Assembly (NCBI RefSeq): GCF_011927905.1
Contig: NZ_JAATJL010000001.1
Span: forward strand, 744,001-808,000
DNA from: Arthrobacter pigmenti
Lineage (GTDB): Bacteria; Actinomycetota; Actinomycetes; Actinomycetales; Micrococcaceae
Length of the DNA: 64,000 nucleotides
Direction of reading: 5' to 3'
This document shows, piece after piece, positions 34,181-51,671 of the stretch. Every line of letters starts with the position of its first letter. Positions within the stretch are counted from its first letter, which is position 1. A program made the translations under genes and the position numbers. Below the pieces are notes generated by a model, which saw nothing but the letters and a program-made list of their open reading frames with translations, was not told where the DNA came from and did no database searches.

Positions 34181-34223
34181 GGCCCCGGATTCGCGCACTT
34201 TTTCGCGTGAATCCGGGGCCTTT
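34181..34223 (+). terminator. Rho-independent terminator after icd
   Basis: GGCCCCGGATTCGCGC (34181-34196) pairs with 34205-34220 (one mismatch) around an 8-nt loop, and TTT follows. It lies 16 nt after the icd stop and separates icd from the exported-protein genes. Confidence 0.85.
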
Positions 34224-34336
34224 CGTGTGGGTGGAGAAGTTTTTAGGAGTTAGCCCATCCAAGTGACTATTTACACCGAATTGGAAGCATGCTTTCCTTG
34301 ATTCCTGGGGAAGCGATCCACAGGGGGTGGTGACAG

Positions 34337-35467
34337 ATGGAAAGGCGCATTCGCCGATCTGCCGCTGCCGGCCTGCGCATCTCACTTCTCGGCGGCTGTG
34401 GAGCGCTGGGTTTTCTGGCGTTTTCCGCCGCTACAGCAACAGCCGACGACGACGGCCATGGCCTATCCGGCGCCCTCACCTCCGTGGTCGAGTCAGTTGC
34501 GACTCCCACGGAAGCTGTGTTGGAAGAAGTCGGTTCGTCATTGAAGCCGGCCGTTGAAGCGGTGGTGCCGTCGTCGTCGGCTTCGGCTGTTCCGCCAGTG
34601 TCCGACGTCGTCAGCAACGTACCCGAGCTCATCGGTGAAGTGAGCGTTGCCGAGACAGTTGCACCGGTTACCTCCCTGGTTGATTCGGTGGTGTCGCAGG
34701 TTCCGGTGGTCAACCGGGTAGTTCCCGAGGGGACAACTTCAAGGGTCACGCAGCCGGTTCTTGATGCGGTGGATACAACCGTTGAGCCGGTGCTTACGCC
34801 GGTACAGCGGGTTCTCACGCCCGTCGTCGATGCCGTGGATCCTGTGATCGAGACAGTGGAACCGGTGGTCGATGTTGTTGAACATGTGGTGACGCCGGTT
34901 GTTGATCCTGTTGTGGATGTCGTGGACCCGGTCGTAGATGTGGTTGAGCCTGTCTCGGATCCTGTTGCACCGGCGGTGCCGGCACCCGATGTTATCGAAC
35001 CCGTTGTTCCCGAGCGCGCACCAGTGGCTTCCGTAGTCGATAGCGAGCAGACAATTCCTCCCGACTCCAACGGCGTCTCGGGAGTTCCTGTCACGACGAC
35101 ATCGGTTGCTGCTGACGATCGTCCGGCGGGTAAGCGCGTGGGTTCGTCGAGCATCACGGTTAGTGGCCCGCCGGTCGACCTGACGTCGTCGCCGATATTT
35201 GTCTCCGGTGACGAGTTTGTTGTGCAGGAAGCTCCTTTGCTGACGCTCGCGGACGCCCAGCCAGCCGCCTCGCCAACGGGTTCGCCAATGCTCAGTTCCG
35301 GCGCCGGTTCTGCCTCCGCTGGATCCGCTGGGCCAGGCGGCGTTGGTGCTGCTGACATGCCATCGTCATTCGATCCTGCATTTTCTTCGACGGACCCCAG
35401 GCAGTCCCGCGACTCCGCGGCACTGCCTCAGGGGCCAACTTTCGATCCCGGCTCAACTCCCGATTGA
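34337..35467 (+). CDS. Exported Val/Pro-repeat protein, function unknown
   Basis: This 376-residue protein has a signal peptide: RRIRRSAAAGLRIS, a hydrophobic core and a cut near TATA-DDD (about residue 36). Residues about 100-225 are a low-complexity run of Val-Pro-Val-Val-Asp/Glu units (PVVDVVDPVVDVVEPV style, period 5-8), giving an alternating, probably extended structure. The C-terminal 100 residues are Ser/Gly/Pro-rich; no cysteines and no sorting signal or membrane anchor are seen. It lies 89 nt upstream of the chaplin-like gene, same strand, so joint expression is likely. A surface or cell-wall-associated role is inference. I do not recognise a named family. Confidence 0.8.
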   Translation: MERRIRRSAAAGLRISLLGGCGALGFLAFSAATATADDDGHGLSGALTSVVESVATPTEAVLEEVGSSLKPAVEAVVPSSSASAVPPVSDVVSNVPELIGEVSVAETVAPVTSLVDSVVSQVPVVNRVVPEGTTSRVTQPVLDAVDTTVEPVLTPVQRVLTPVVDAVDPVIETVEPVVDVVEHVVTPVVDPVVDVVDPVVDVVEPVSDPVAPAVPAPDVIEPVVPERAPVASVVDSEQTIPPDSNGVSGVPVTTTSVAADDRPAGKRVGSSSITVSGPPVDLTSSPIFVSGDEFVVQEAPLLTLADAQPAASPTGSPMLSSGAGSASAGSAGPGGVGAADMPSSFDPAFSSTDPRQSRDSAALPQGPTFDPGSTPD

Positions 35468-35556
35468 TGAGCTCGTCGCTGCCCTCCACGCGGTAGCAGA
35501 AGAGCTTCTGTGGCGCTCGAAGCGCCACGTCAAACATCAATTCAGGAGAAAACATC

Positions 35557-37767
35557 ATGCAAACGTGCATACAACGAGGGATCAAAGTATTCCTCCTAGC
35601 CGGGGGCATTCTGGTCCTTGGCGCTGGGGCGGCGTCCGCCGCGGAACCCGGCACAGAAGTATTGGGCGGCGTAAGTGCGCCAGTGAATGTCAGCGGTAAC
35701 GCCGTTTCGGTGATTGGGGACGCTTCCTCTGAGGGGTCGACGTCGTCATCGGGCGGGGGAGTAGCCGCTGGCAGCGAGGCATCGTCCGGCGAGGATGATT
35801 CGCTACTTGGCGGTGTGACGGCTGTGGTTGAGGCTGTGGCTCCGGTAAATGTCAGCGGGAATGCGGTGTCGGTGATTGGTGATTCGTCGACTGGCGGTTC
35901 GGATGCTGCGGCTGGTGGTTCCACGTCTGGTGGTGCCGGTGTTGCTGGTGGGTCGTCGGATGACGGTCTGGTCGGTGATGTGGCCGCTGTGGTTGAGGCT
36001 GTGGCTCCGGTGAATGTCAGCGGGAATGCGGTGTCGGTGATTGGTGATTCGTCGACTGGCGGTTCGGGTGCTGCGGCTGGTGGTTCTACGTCTGGTGGTG
36101 GCGGTGTTGCTGGTGGGTCGTCGGATGACGGTCTGGTCGGTGATGTGGCCGCTGTGGTTGAGGCTGTGGCTCCGGTGAATGTCAGCGGGAATGCGGTGTC
36201 GGTGATTGGTGATTCGTCGACTGGCGGTTCGGGTGCTGCGGCTGGTGGTTCTACGTCTGGTGGTGGCGGTGTTGCTGGTGGGTCGTCGGATGAGGGTCTG
36301 GTCGGTGATGTGGCCGCTGTGGTTGAGGCTGTGGCTCCGGTGAATGTCAGCGGGAATGCGGTGTCGGTGATTGGTGATTCCTCGGCTGAGGGCTCGGATG
36401 CGGCTGCTGGTGGTGCAACCTCCGGTGGTGCCGACAGCAGTTCGGAATCCGGTAGTTCGGATGATTCGCTGGTGGGCGATGTTGTCGGTGATGTTGATGC
36501 TGTGGCTCCGGTGAATGTCAGCGGGAATGCGGTGTCGGTGATTGGTGATTCCTCGACTGGCGGTTCGGATGCTGCGGCTGGCGGTTCCACGTCTGGTGGT
36601 GGCGGTATTGCTGGTGGGTCGTCGGATGACGGTCTGGTCGGTGATGTGGCCGCTGTGGTTGAGGCTGTGGCTCCGGTGAATGTCAGCGGGAATGCGGTGT
36701 CGGTGATTGGTGATTCCTCGACTGGCGGTTCGGATGCTGCGGCTGGCGGTTCCACGTCTGGTGGTGGCGGTATTGCTGGTGGGTCGTCGGATGACGGTCT
36801 GGTCGGTGATGTGGCCGCTGTGGTTGAGGCTGTGGCTCCGGTGAATGTCAGCGGGAATGCGGTGTCGGTGATTGGTGATTCCTCGACTGAGGGCTCGGAT
36901 GCGGCTGCTGGTGGTGCAACCTCCGGTGGTGCCGACAGCAGTTCGGAAGGCAGCGCCGATGACGGTTTGCTCGGCGACATCGGACTTGATCTCGGCGCTA
37001 TCGCACCGGTCAATGTTGGGTGCAACGCGGTGTCGGTGATTGGCGACAGCTCATCTTCGAACTGCGAATCAGCGGCAACTGCCAATGGTGGCTCGTCGGG
37101 AAGTAACGGTGGCTCTGCTGGCGGTGGTTCGGATGATTCCCTGGTGGGGGATGTCATCGGGAGTGTTGATGTCGTGGTCCCCGTGAACGTCGGGTGTAAC
37201 GCAGTCTCGGTGATTGGTGACACCTCCACCTCCGATTGCGGTTCGGCTGCAGGGAACCCGGATGATCCCACAGGCCCAACGGATCCCACGGACCCAACGG
37301 ATCCCACGGACCCAACGGATCCCACGGACCCAACGGATCCCACGGATCCCACGGATCCCACGGATCCAACGGACCCAACGGACTCAACGGATCCCACGGA
37401 TCCCACGGATCCCACTGATCCAACGGACCCAACGGACTCAACGGATCCCACGGATCCCACCGATCCTCAGGGGCCAGCCACGGGTGATGACGGCAACGGG
37501 ACGCCAGGAGCCGGAACGGACAACGGACTCAACAACGGCACCGACTTCAGGGTTGTCCTGGCCAGTGCGGGCGTCACGGCCGGCGCAGGCGTCGCGGACC
37601 GCGCCGCAACGAACGCAACGAGCGCTGCAGGCACAGCAGGCTCAGCGGCTCGCGGCAGTCTCGCTCAGACCGGCGTCGATTCGTCGCTGTTGCTTCTGAT
37701 GGGAGGCCTGCTCGTCATAAGCGGCGTCGCCCTGGTCGCACGCCGGGTTCGCACAGTGCGGATCTAA
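35557..37767 (+). CDS. Chaplin-like ten-repeat surface protein with LAQTG sorting signal
   Basis: This 736-residue protein has a signal peptide (IKVFLLAGGILVLGAGAASA, cut near residue 30). Ten copies of the core PVNVSGNAVSVIGD follow, mostly every 55 residues, joined by Gly/Ser/Ala linkers. The core resembles the amyloid-forming heart of chaplins (PVNVCGNSVNVIG). Repeats 1-8 have Ser-Gly where repeats 9 and 10 have Gly-Cys, and those two also end in a second Cys 14 residues on (NCES, DCGS). A Pro-Thr-Asp stalk of about 65 residues and a C-terminal LAQTG, hydrophobic helix and RRVRTVRI tail form a class E-type sorting signal. AGGAG precedes the ATG. Wall anchoring is well supported; amyloid or hydrophobin-like action is inferred. 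Confidence 0.85.
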   Translation: MQTCIQRGIKVFLLAGGILVLGAGAASAAEPGTEVLGGVSAPVNVSGNAVSVIGDASSEGSTSSSGGGVAAGSEASSGEDDSLLGGVTAVVEAVAPVNVSGNAVSVIGDSSTGGSDAAAGGSTSGGAGVAGGSSDDGLVGDVAAVVEAVAPVNVSGNAVSVIGDSSTGGSGAAAGGSTSGGGGVAGGSSDDGLVGDVAAVVEAVAPVNVSGNAVSVIGDSSTGGSGAAAGGSTSGGGGVAGGSSDEGLVGDVAAVVEAVAPVNVSGNAVSVIGDSSAEGSDAAAGGATSGGADSSSESGSSDDSLVGDVVGDVDAVAPVNVSGNAVSVIGDSSTGGSDAAAGGSTSGGGGIAGGSSDDGLVGDVAAVVEAVAPVNVSGNAVSVIGDSSTGGSDAAAGGSTSGGGGIAGGSSDDGLVGDVAAVVEAVAPVNVSGNAVSVIGDSSTEGSDAAAGGATSGGADSSSEGSADDGLLGDIGLDLGAIAPVNVGCNAVSVIGDSSSSNCESAATANGGSSGSNGGSAGGGSDDSLVGDVIGSVDVVVPVNVGCNAVSVIGDTSTSDCGSAAGNPDDPTGPTDPTDPTDPTDPTDPTDPTDPTDPTDPTDPTDPTDSTDPTDPTDPTDPTDPTDSTDPTDPTDPQGPATGDDGNGTPGAGTDNGLNNGTDFRVVLASAGVTAGAGVADRAATNATSAAGTAGSAARGSLAQTGVDSSLLLLMGGLLVISGVALVARRVRTVRI
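35836..36996 (+). repeat. 165-bp tandem repeats inside the chaplin-like gene
   Basis: Units start (GTGGCTCCGGT) at 35836, 36001, 36166, 36331, 36502, 36667 and 36832: spacing 165 bp, once 171. Adjacent units are nearly identical at DNA level, including synonymous sites, which points to recent duplication or gene conversion. Diverged copies flank them near 35668, 37003 and 37168. Confidence 0.95.
37267..37470 (+). repeat. Short tandem array encoding the Pro-Thr-Asp stalk
   Basis: About 200 bp built of 9- and 18-bp units (GATCCCACG and GACCCAACG) encode PTD repeats with two PTDSTD variants. The reading frame is kept because every unit is a multiple of 3. Such arrays are prone to slippage, so copy number may vary between strains. 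Confidence 0.92.
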
Positions 37768-50993: not shown

Positions 50994-51671
50994 CTAGAGA
51001 ACCAGCGTTGCGAAGATCACGTAGTTGTCGTCGAACAGCCCCGTCGCGGGATCGTAGCCGTCGCAGGTGATGAGACGGATCTCGGACTCCGGCGTGTAGC
51101 CGTAGACGGTAGCGGTGGGGAAATCATTCTTCGGGTACTGCTCGCCGCGGGTGACCTCGAACGTCGCGGTGGAACCGTCCGCCCGCAACACGTCAATCCG
51201 GTCACCTGGCTTCAGACTGCGAAGGTCGGCAAAGACACCCGGTCCACCGTCCGTTGCGTTGACGTGGCCAAGCAGCACGGAAGGGCCGCGTTCGCCCGGC
51301 GTGGGTGACTGGTTGTACCAGCTCGCCGGTGCTCCCGGACCGTCCGGCGGGACCTCAAGCGAACCGTTCTCACGGATGCCCAGGGACAGCAGCTCGGAAC
51401 CGGCGCCGATCGAGGGGATCGTGAATGACACGGGCTCGGAGGCTTCCATCACCGGCGGAAGGGAATCAGCAGGCGCAGGCTCGGCGGCCGGCGTTGTTTC
51501 CGCTACCGACGGAGTGGGGGACGCTGGAGCGGACGTGGCGGGCGCCGTCGTCGTACTGGGCGCTTGCGCGCCGTCACTGCCGGGTGTGCTGCCGCAACCG
51601 GTCAGGATAAGAAGGGCGGCCGCCGCAGAGACTGCAAAGCCTCTGCGGCGGCCGTTGTTCGAGCTGATCAT
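50994..51671 (-). CDS. Class F sortase
   Basis: This 225-residue exported protein has a lipoprotein-like or uncleaved N-terminus (AAALLILTGCGSTPGSDG), then an Ala/Pro/Thr-rich linker (about 30-75), then the sortase barrel. Catalytic His is in VLLGHVNATDGG and catalytic Cys in IRLITCDGYDPATG. After the Cys the sequence runs LFDDNYVIFATLVL; in relatives I know, an Arg often precedes the Asp-Asn, so the catalytic Arg seems absent or shifted. It follows the CHRD-protein gene by 16 nt on the same strand, an arrangement typical of class F sortases and their substrate. Whether it also serves the LAQTG protein at 35.6 kb is unlikely but open. Confidence 0.86.
   Translation of the reverse strand: MISSNNGRRRGFAVSAAAALLILTGCGSTPGSDGAQAPSTTTAPATSAPASPTPSVAETTPAAEPAPADSLPPVMEASEPVSFTIPSIGAGSELLSLGIRENGSLEVPPDGPGAPASWYNQSPTPGERGPSVLLGHVNATDGGPGVFADLRSLKPGDRIDVLRADGSTATFEVTRGEQYPKNDFPTATVYGYTPESEIRLITCDGYDPATGLFDDNYVIFATLVL

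Follow-up and report, generated by a model that had tools for sequence, protein, structure and literature searches.

The window, a 64,000-nucleotide stretch of the genome of the soil bacterium Arthrobacter pigmenti, probably harbors a two-gene surface-protein unit in which, as predicted from the sequence and its RNA folds, translation of a partner gene unlocks translation of a wall protein. Computed results comprise the pair of genes, the anchor signal, the fold and covariation of the RNA, and the relationship to chaplins by way of relatives. In the proposed scheme, both genes would lie on one transcript. The first would give rise to a secreted partner, and the second to a secreted protein whose ten beta-rich units, similar to those of chaplins, sit on a PTD stalk; a class E sortase would link this protein to the cell wall through LAQTG. 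On that transcript, the final codons of the partner would base-pair with the wall gene's Shine-Dalgarno site, closing a three-way junction. The outer helix would block initiation, leaving the wall protein poorly translated until a ribosome reaching the end of the partner gene melts the helix. The units may form a beta-rich or amyloid-like coat for attachment or surface hydrophobicity, and the partner may assist in assembling it.

Organization of the gene pair

The signal peptide, ten units, PTD stalk, and LAQTG motif that an earlier note had described are all present in the wall protein (Table 1). Its Pro/Thr/Asp stalk starts at residue 566, and LAQTG lies at residue 702, followed by a hydrophobic stretch and an Arg-rich tail. 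The NCBIfam LPXTG-anchor domain scores 17.5 bits on this protein (cut-off 15.9), and the genome encodes a class E sortase, which scores 241 bits against a cut-off of 160. The properties of a class E sortase substrate are thus all found, namely an LAxTG motif, a hydrophobic stretch, a basic tail, and the sortase itself. The LAQTG signal and the sortase gene support the LAxTG anchor of the earlier note, and the protein is apparently anchored in the cell wall.

Table 1. Features of the two-gene unit, in window coordinates
Feature	Position	Strand	Basis
Terminator-like hairpin (16 pairs) between upstream dehydrogenase gene and partner	34181..34220	+	
Partner gene (376 aa, Val/Pro-rich) with signal-peptide start and ...FDPGSTPD at its end	34337..35467	+	ORF list
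Structured RNA element, three-way junction	35454..35559	+	Model R1, folding
Outer helix 5' strand: partner CDS end (Thr-Pro-Asp codons in part) and stop codon	35457..35467	+	
Wall-gene Shine-Dalgarno AGGAG, predicted paired with partner end (mean probability 0.80)	35544..35548	+	
Chaplin-like wall protein gene, 736 aa	35557..37767	+	ORF list
Signal peptide, about aa 1-28, similar across relatives	35557..35640	+	By inspection; cleavage site inferred
Eight Cys-less units; cores start 35680, 35842, 36007, 36172, 36337, 36508, 36673, 36838	35680..36879 (end of eighth core)	+	
Two Cys-pair units; cores start 37006 and 37180	37006..37239 (last Cys codon)	+	
PTD-rich stalk; tandem repeat 37264-37466 inside	37252..37476	+	Repeat search and translation
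LAQTG sorting signal, then hydrophobic stretch, Arg-rich tail	37660..37764	+	NCBIfam anchor domain and translation

The earlier note had registered neither the partner gene nor the structured RNA between the genes. Pfam and NCBIfam searches gave no family above cut-off for the partner; collagen- and apolipoprotein-type matches, seen in 1-3 of 35 partners, seem to reflect composition. The hairpin upstream of the partner weakly suggests that the unit begins downstream of it, weakly because two such sites were found against 2.9 in shuffles.

In 90 of 95 loci, the script-chosen start of the wall gene follows, at a distance of 78-167 nt, an ORF ending in Pro-Asp-stop. The five exceptions are four contig ends and one locus (L145) ending in Pro-Gly, which leaves 90 of 91 readable loci as the unbiased figure (one genome contributes two copies, L106 and L109). 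The invariance of Pro-Asp in A3 and in 72 distinct tails proves nothing, because these were picked from ORFs ending in Pro-Asp. The partner searches included a class-wide one covering 197 genomes; of the eight partner-model matches inspected outside the collected set, seven end in Pro-Asp, and L275 does not. Partner-like ORFs of the f32 genomes, presumed to be Streptosporangiales-like, also end in Pro-Asp, with longer gaps of 162-314 nt in eight folded loci. Within the genus, the partner occurs in 16 of 38 genomes and genuine unit matches in 15, with both in 14; a sixteenth genome, G008, was rejected because it gives a weak match within an aldehyde-dehydrogenase-like ORF. Elsewhere, the upstream Pro-Asp ORF is absent from 17 of 26 further loci that carry chaplin units and from 27 loci around Streptomyces-type chaplins, save for one opposite-strand frame, so that the partner, judged from these loci, is not general to chaplins.

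A structured RNA between the genes

Within the window element, CUCC at 35457-35460 is predicted to pair with GGAG at 35545-35548. The element scores 67.8 bits with model R1, of which it is one of 11 training rows, and folds at -44 kcal/mol (z -5.24), a value that none of 200 shuffles equaled. Across the folded elements, z lies below -2 in 89 of 89 and below -4 in 71 (median -5.07), and the Shine-Dalgarno site pairs with the first 18 nt at a mean probability above 0.5 in 77 of 89. Among controls, none of 160 random windows has z below -4, and only one of 66 windows placed at other ribosome sites does; 6 of those 66 show such pairing. Covariation reaches 0.322 in the MAFFT alignment A6, against 0.159 when shuffled and at most 0.150 when slid, and 0.430 in the model-fitted A7, where shuffling gives 0.153 and sliding no more than 0.093. 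Two-sided changes occur at 25 of 28 pairs in the 75 held-out rows from the gene strand, and 85.6% of the cells there are paired.

On the gene strand, R1 finds a single match in each of 86 out of 100 sources, the 11 training rows included; the 14 missed sources include all three f32 loci searched. Of these matches, 84 begin with the Pro-Asp-stop end of the partner, the others being a contig end (L108) and L145, where Gly replaces Asp and the element still scores 31.5 bits. At an E-value limit of 0.001, R1 has two matches in the 3.8-Mb genome of the host, and each of them sits where a partner adjoins a secreted repeat gene. Rfam 15 gave nothing at E up to 1 for window positions 34200-37000, and Rfam at gathering scores returned one tRNA only from 12 loci. 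A wobble-pair test on held-out loci did not favor the gene strand (96 GU against 91 AC cells), and there are 20 mirror R1 matches on the opposite strand; the case for an RNA over a DNA palindrome therefore rests on the Shine-Dalgarno pairing and the position.

The last Pro codon of the partner is CCT in 53 of 74 L-loci, against 8% in gene bodies, and CCC in 21; it is CCC in the window too. CCG, which makes up 48% of gene-body Pro codons, is found in 0 of the 74 and in 1 of the 72 distinct tails. With CCC, the outer helix has C-A in place of U-A, as in the window; since Pro is kept despite this mismatch, a protein-level constraint probably acts too. The terminal Pro-Asp had initially been read as a protein signal, a reading displaced by the codon bias and the RNA folds. 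It could be, for example, a docking tail to which the pairing is secondary, and it persists whether the Pro codon is CCT or CCC, in 90 of the 91 readable loci, and in the f32 loci, three of which yielded no R1 match when searched. However, the avoidance of CCG, a covariation that runs through non-coding helices, and the persistence of the element in L145 without Asp all speak against this account, which we regard as quite improbable. A somewhat stronger contender, although still unlikely, is that the RNA is a riboswitch, a thermometer, or a protein-bound switch, in which a signal stabilizes or opens the Shine-Dalgarno helix and the overlap with the stop codon is incidental. Placing the Shine-Dalgarno site in the helix that closes a junction is a usual switch layout, the fold is more elaborate than coupling requires, and both inner hairpins covary. 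Against a switch, unpaired positions between the strands of the outer helix are at most 82% conserved in 86 gene-strand rows (the highest being an A in an inner hairpin), and the 5' strand carries the Pro-Asp-stop end in 84 of 86 matches, which suits translational coupling.

The repeat units and their cysteines

The ten exact PVNV(SG or GC)NAVSVIGD units begin at residues 42, 96, 151, 206, 261, 318, 373, 428, 484, and 542, spaced 54-58 residues apart, and TRF detects a 165-nt array in the gene with a score (1797) beyond chance. When the first 120 nt of each unit are compared without gaps, units 2, 3, 4, 6, and 7 are 96-100% alike and units 5 and 8 are 93% alike, whereas unit 1 is 56-61% alike to units 2-8, and units 9 and 10 match all others at 45-56%. 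Since identity is high in the middle and low in units 1, 9, and 10, the array is a recent block duplication with diverged end units. Ten units is a high number, as the earlier note had stressed, but not an exceptional one: by regular expression, 80 related loci carry 3-15 units (median 7; ten or more in four), and G341 of the same genus has 16. Multi-unit, largely Cys-less LAxTG relatives are common within the order of the host.

Besides Cys 4 in the signal peptide, the protein has Cys at 489/503 and 547/561, and thus four in its mature form. The earlier note was right that the Cys pair, with its spacing of 14, is confined to the last two units, the other eight being Cys-less, and that the loop is shorter than that of chaplins: the window pair sits at offset 5, against offset 4 and spacing 18 in 22 of 22 chaplin domains from the f34 genomes (presumed Streptomyces), and is thus one residue later. 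Its statement that the first eight units have lost Cys is doubtful. Units with two close Cys occur in just 5 of 80 related proteins, and given this rarity and the shifted, shorter-looped pair, independent gain in Arthrobacter would be at least as likely as loss. The placement of the Cys units nearest the wall end recurs in 19 of 19 proteins with both unit kinds, drawn from 23 picked, mutually related proteins, and extends to Agrococcus and f32 proteins.

Relationship to chaplins

The wall protein is a distant relative of the chaplins, which are coat proteins of Streptomyces, a kinship that appears through its relatives. Aligned by hhalign with 22 chaplin domains, the window units score 30.0, against at most 22.3 for 100 column-shuffled decoys, over 21-28 columns only. 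PF03777 matches 10 of the 11 relatives that form A1 together with the window protein (12 members) at E up to 0.01 (best E 7e-31), and it exceeds its cut-off of 21 bits in G019 (27.3) and G023 (22.4) of the same genus. The window protein reaches 12.7 bits, and the earlier note had itself listed missing similarity to this model as counting against its proposal; its chaplin-like label therefore stands through the relatives and the decoy comparison and not through a direct match. The three GN motifs of a chaplin are not present in each unit, units 1-8 having the middle one alone; relatives such as G019 retain the first. PF03777 and A2 searches found no companion short chaplin or other unit-bearing gene in the host genome; one weak A2 match lies at 922597. 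The suggestion of a hydrophobin-like protein fails, with PF01185 at 14.8 bits (cut-off 23) and four Cys in the mature protein. Fungal hydrophobins have an eight-Cys pattern. A Pfam match to DUF493 was likewise below cut-off.

The units could instead be a short V/N/G-rich beta motif that arose convergently in an adhesin, as the missed PF03777 match, the few aligned columns, and the one GN motif at most per unit might suggest; yet the PF03777 matches among the relatives, the lower decoy scores, and the f32 units with Cys at the chaplin offset make convergence rather improbable. The earlier note had proposed a distinct amyloid coat with a disulfide-locked base. The terminal position of the Cys-pair units in all 19 proteins fits this, as does the AF2 model, of low confidence for the wall protein and the partner alike, which gives three short strands in each of units 1-8; ChpE forms fibrils although it lacks Cys (PMC3079736). 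Against such a coat, the proteins of G004 and G340 have no Cys units, each Cys unit of the model has one strand with pLDDT below 40, and Foldseek found no fold match in the PDB at E 0.001. We consider the proposal doubtful. The protein stands less apart than the earlier note proposed: PF03777 misses it but recognizes most of its relatives in A1, Cys-poor multi-unit LAxTG relatives are common, and a chaplin-like gene of Arthrobacter has already been published (PMC4255298).

Comparison with known systems

The Streptomyces long chaplins ChpA-C (PF03777) share with the wall protein a PVNV..N.V.VIG-type core, and they are likewise secreted and sortase-anchored (PMC7766987). They have two domains, in contrast to ten units here; chaplins carry three GN motifs and a Cys pair (except ChpE), whereas no unit of the window protein has more than a single GN, and just two of its units contain Cys, at another offset and spacing. 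The published Arthrobacter gene, from A. chlorophenolicus, also belongs to a non-sporulating host, and the accessible part of that account mentions no repeat architecture, partner, or RNA (PMC4255298). CwpA and CwpB of Actinoplanes missouriensis are likewise SrtE-dependent, wall-anchored, and hydrophobic outside Streptomyces, with predicted disordered regions and clusters of beta sheets; according to the authors, they differ in lacking chaplin domains (PMC13251363). NCBIfam NF058582 (Microco_LAVTG) is also a sorting domain of sortase-dependent surface proteins, but it covers the C-terminal anchor only, and its score in the G018 relative, 23.1 bits, stays below the cut-off of 27.

In RNA-phage and ribosomal-protein operons, a start site lies hidden in a long-range helix until translation of the preceding gene opens it. 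The proposed freeing of the wall-gene start resembles this, but here the helix closes a covarying three-way junction, one strand of which is the partner's own terminal codons. At 89 nt, the distance from partner stop to wall-gene start exceeds what termination-reinitiation tolerates in measurements from E. coli and Haloferax (PMC10666635).

Biological significance

Chaplins have been studied mainly in spore-forming Streptomyces. The present analysis predicts a chaplin-related multi-unit family on the walls of non-sporulating bacteria, behind a partner without a named family above cut-off, and bears on whether a surface role predated the role in aerial growth, an idea put forward in PMC4255298. 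In this analysis the RNA family turned up solely between partner genes and surface-repeat genes of Micrococcales. On balance, we favor the view that it is an undescribed family in which the end of a coding sequence acts as the anti-Shine-Dalgarno strand, an arrangement that would largely fix the last two residues of the partner and tie synthesis of the wall protein, chaplin-like or a replacement, to that of the partner. The conserved terminus of a protein would thus be explained, at least partly, by RNA base pairing. The element would be a directly testable switch, and a marker for gene pairs whose repeats have changed type, as in G184, G018, and the second locus of the host genome.

The wall protein and its repeats

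The reading frame that the earlier note had picked out as a signal peptide, repeat units, stalk and sorting signal is real and as described there. Its ten exact PVNV..NAVSVIGD units comprise eight of the SG and two of the GC kind, and the Cys pairs, 14 residues apart, are indeed seen in units 9 and 10 only. When the first 120 nt of each are compared, units 2, 3, 4, 6 and 7 are 96-100% alike and units 5 and 8 93%, with far greater divergence in units 1, 9 and 10, so that the count of ten results from block duplication and was reached recently. An antisense frame that stays open over the entire repeat array probably reflects the codon pattern that the repeats share.

Features of the wall protein locus and of loci compared with it
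Feature	Coordinates	Strand	Length	Description
Partner ORF	window 34337-35467			Val/Pro-rich, signal-peptide start
RNA element	window 35454-35559			-44 kcal/mol, z -5.24, 0/200 shuffles as good
Wall protein ORF	window 35557-37767	+	736 aa	signal peptide, ten units, PTD stalk, LAQTG
Antisense frame	window 35292-37460	-	722 aa	open over repeat array
Sortase-domain ORF	window 51000-51670	-		lipoprotein-like start
Second partner locus, own genome	G000:C1:3128612-3131181 (L255:4613-7182)		354 aa (partner)	partner end EHGFSPD
Partner and LAQTG protein, G018	L256:3591-6169			
Wall-protein frame, L149	L149:3932-5434			

In the AlphaFold model of the wall protein (run on A4; mean pLDDT 52, pTM 0.48), units 1-8 contain strands of about 8, 4 and 3 residues, at which ten-residue pLDDT means are 61-82 in units 1-7 and near 50 in unit 8. 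A single strand (pLDDT below 40) is predicted in each of units 9 and 10, and the loops are predicted to be disordered. Foldseek found no match to the model in the PDB at E 0.001; many of the weaker matches are, judged from their names, beta-helix proteins.

Relationship to the chaplins

The wall protein fails the cut-off of the Pfam chaplin family PF03777 (12.7 against 21 bits) and is the best match in its own genome. Relatives in the same genus exceed the cut-off (27.3 bits for one unit in G019, 22.4 bits in G023), and at E up to 0.01 the family model finds 10 sequences in the 12-member alignment A1, or 10 of its 11 relatives. By hhalign, the window units score 30.0 against 22 chaplin domains taken from loci L032-L058 of family f34, presumed to be Streptomyces, the maximum over 100 column-shuffled decoys being 22.3; 52 Arthrobacter units score 38.8 against the same domains (decoy maximum 21.6). 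On these alignments the window units are read as homologous to the chaplins through intermediates. The chaplin likeness proposed earlier is thus upheld through the relatives and hhalign, and not by PF03777 on the protein itself, which, lacking two of the three GN motifs and also the chaplin Cys positions, is not filed as a chaplin.

In all 19 proteins with both kinds of unit, out of 23 picked proteins that are related and hence not independent, the Cys-less units come first and the Cys-pair units lie nearest the wall end, an order that agrees with the earlier idea of a 'locked base'. The regular expression caught only part of L129, whose Cys unit is nonetheless last. The offset and spacing of the Cys residues are 4/18 in the f34 chaplins (22 of 22), 4/14 in f32, a family outside the order, and 5/13 or 5/14 in Arthrobacter and Agrococcus; given this difference from f34, the supposed loss of Cys from the first eight units is not established. 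The absence of Cys also says little about amyloid, since the Cys-less ChpE forms fibrils in vitro (PMC3079736, excerpt). Loci L290-L300 (f32) encode long proteins with a single Cys-less unit followed by Cys-pair units; no LPXTG was seen at their C-termini, where LTGMN or similar precedes a hydrophobic stretch.

Distribution

A multi-unit wall protein is not unusual within its order, which makes the system less distinct than the earlier note had it. A contig profile search confirmed 251 of 319 candidate stretches, and the best 80 of these 251 come mostly from Microbacterium, Agromyces, Agrococcus, Leifsonia and Cryobacterium, together with Arthrobacter, Janibacter, Knoellia and others. By regular expression these 80 have 3-15 units per protein (median 7), with at least ten in 4, so that ten is at the high end yet within the range; they end in LAxTG (68), LPxTG (5) or no motif (7), and units with two close Cys residues are present in only 5. 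Of 296 class genomes, 66 have a PF03777 match that exceeds the cut-off; of 149 family genomes, 12 have one at E up to 0.01, and in 6 of these the cut-off is exceeded. Multi-unit chaplin-type proteins are also present in f32, outside the order, and a chaplin-like gene has already been reported in Arthrobacter chlorophenolicus (PMC4255298, excerpt).

Some individual records deserve comment. One Agrococcus contig (NZ_FPEG01000001.1) holds two locus copies, L106 and L109, about 280 kb apart in opposite orientation and with identical match length and E-value. L108 is labelled as a Fulvimarina MAG, probably through a binning error, as its locus copy is Microbacterium-like. The L149 frame enters Arg/Cys-rich sequence after several units, which we take as a frameshift or assembly error.

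The partner gene

In 90 of 95 loci the wall-gene start, as chosen by script, has a reading frame ending in Pro-Asp-stop 78-167 nt upstream; four of the others (L108, L125, L166 and L167) are at contig ends, and in L145 the partner ends in Pro-Gly. The predicted partner structure is helical at 134-202 and largely disordered thereafter. Among 38 genomes of the genus, 16 have partner matches, 15 genuine unit matches and 14 both. In G332 the units are on split contigs and a partner match is absent; G333 seems to have a copy, at a contig end, of a second kind of locus.

In the organism's own genome a second partner precedes a secreted acidic repeat protein with repeats like LGLDVAADANVDAAVEG...GDDNSSEGSL, the same kind of signal peptide and no sorting signal (no LPXTG). 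In G018 a partner and an LAQTG protein are flanked, as in the window, by a dehydrogenase and an oxidoreductase gene (names by eye); the repeats are of the ADANVDAAVVLGAGDGVLGD type, unlike those of the window, with signal peptide, anchor and partner kept.

Beyond the order, a YTPD-ending partner stands ahead of an LAETG chaplin-type gene in L276 and partners stand ahead of other secreted proteins in L272 and L273; the partner-model match in L275 does not end in Pro-Asp. Eight f32 loci combine a single Cys-less unit with several Cys units; five of them have an upstream frame ending SFSPD and the remaining three offer less than 350 nt of upstream sequence. In five of L290-L300 the upstream frame ends in RTAADDPSFSPD. 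Seventeen further loci whose units are of the Cys type showed no such frame upstream, L287 being outside this count.

An RNA element between the two genes

In the predicted fold, two hairpins are enclosed by a helix between UCUCCUGAYUGA, at the end of the partner, and the UCAGGAG region that precedes the start of the wall gene. This pairing accounts for a bias in the partner's last Pro codon, which is CCT in 53 and CCC in 21 of 74 loci, and CCG in one of 72 distinct tails from a wider set; in gene bodies CCG makes up 48% and CCT 8% of Pro codons. All 89 elements folded have z below -2 (71 below -4; median -5.07), and in 77 the Shine-Dalgarno (SD) sequence is paired, with a mean probability above 0.5, to the first 18 nt. 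In controls from the same loci the median z is -0.17 for 160 random windows, with none below -4, and -0.66 for 66 other ribosome-site windows, with one below -4 and such pairing in 6.

RNAalifold on the MAFFT alignment A6 (11 sequences) gives a three-way junction with two-sided changes in 11 of 19 pairs. A fuller 28-pair structure, drawn from the pair probabilities of these same rows, has a covariation of 0.322 (0.159 shuffled, at most 0.150 slid). The value is 0.430 (0.153 shuffled, at most 0.093 slid) in the model-fitted A7, whose 106 rows include 20 mirror-strand matches and by construction lean towards the structure. In the 75 rows left after removal of mirror and training rows, two-sided changes are still seen in 25 of the 28 pairs, with 85.6% of cells paired.

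The RNA model R1, searched at E up to 0.1 over 100 sources (1.06 Mb), gave 86 gene-strand matches, one per source, and none in fourteen; as 11 matches are training rows, 75 of 89 held-out sources were matched. Matches begin in the Pro-Asp-stop end in 84 of 86 cases and end on the start codon, which is part of the model. Strictly filtered at E up to 0.001, R1 gave 16 matches in 14 of 394 class genomes, missing G142, which has partner and wall gene. The downstream gene has a secreted-type start in 15 of the 16 (L308 is ambiguous) and is mostly chaplin-like, those of L309, L319 and L320 being of another low-complexity type. In the window's own genome R1 gave two matches at E up to 0.001, the window element and the second partner locus (47.2 bits); the G018 element scores 59.9 bits. 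A search of Rfam gave no match to the element, and among the chaplin papers listed by literature searches no title or opening of an abstract describes it or the partner.

Proposed coupling, anchoring and role

Since the helix predicted to hide the wall-gene SD includes the stop codon of the partner, a ribosome that reaches the end of the partner should melt this helix and would expose the SD. Termination-reinitiation in its simple form is unlikely, because the 89 nt between stop and start are too far by the distances measured in PMC10666635 (excerpt); initiation at a fresh, unmasked site is therefore favored.

L145 is a natural separation of protein tail from RNA, as its partner ends in Pro-Gly yet R1 scores 31.5 bits. 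CCC as last Pro codon places a C-A mismatch in the helix, wobble pairs give no evidence for the strand (96 GU vs 91 AC), and R1 has no match in three f32 loci searched despite their Pro-Asp ends; together these suggest that the partner's protein tail matters too, beside the RNA pairing. In L292, L293 and L297 (f32), partner-terminal CCTGAC pairs with GTCAGG upstream of the next gene and not with its SD, possibly as a relative of the RNA element.

The sortase-domain frame in the window is one of three sortase matches in the genome, and just before it lies the end of a gene whose tail is hydrophobic and finishes in Arg. A class E sortase encoded in the genome (241 bits; cut-off 160) would anchor the unmasked gene's product, the wall protein, and by analogy with chaplins the resulting coat may have a role in attachment, surface hydrophobicity or protection from drying.
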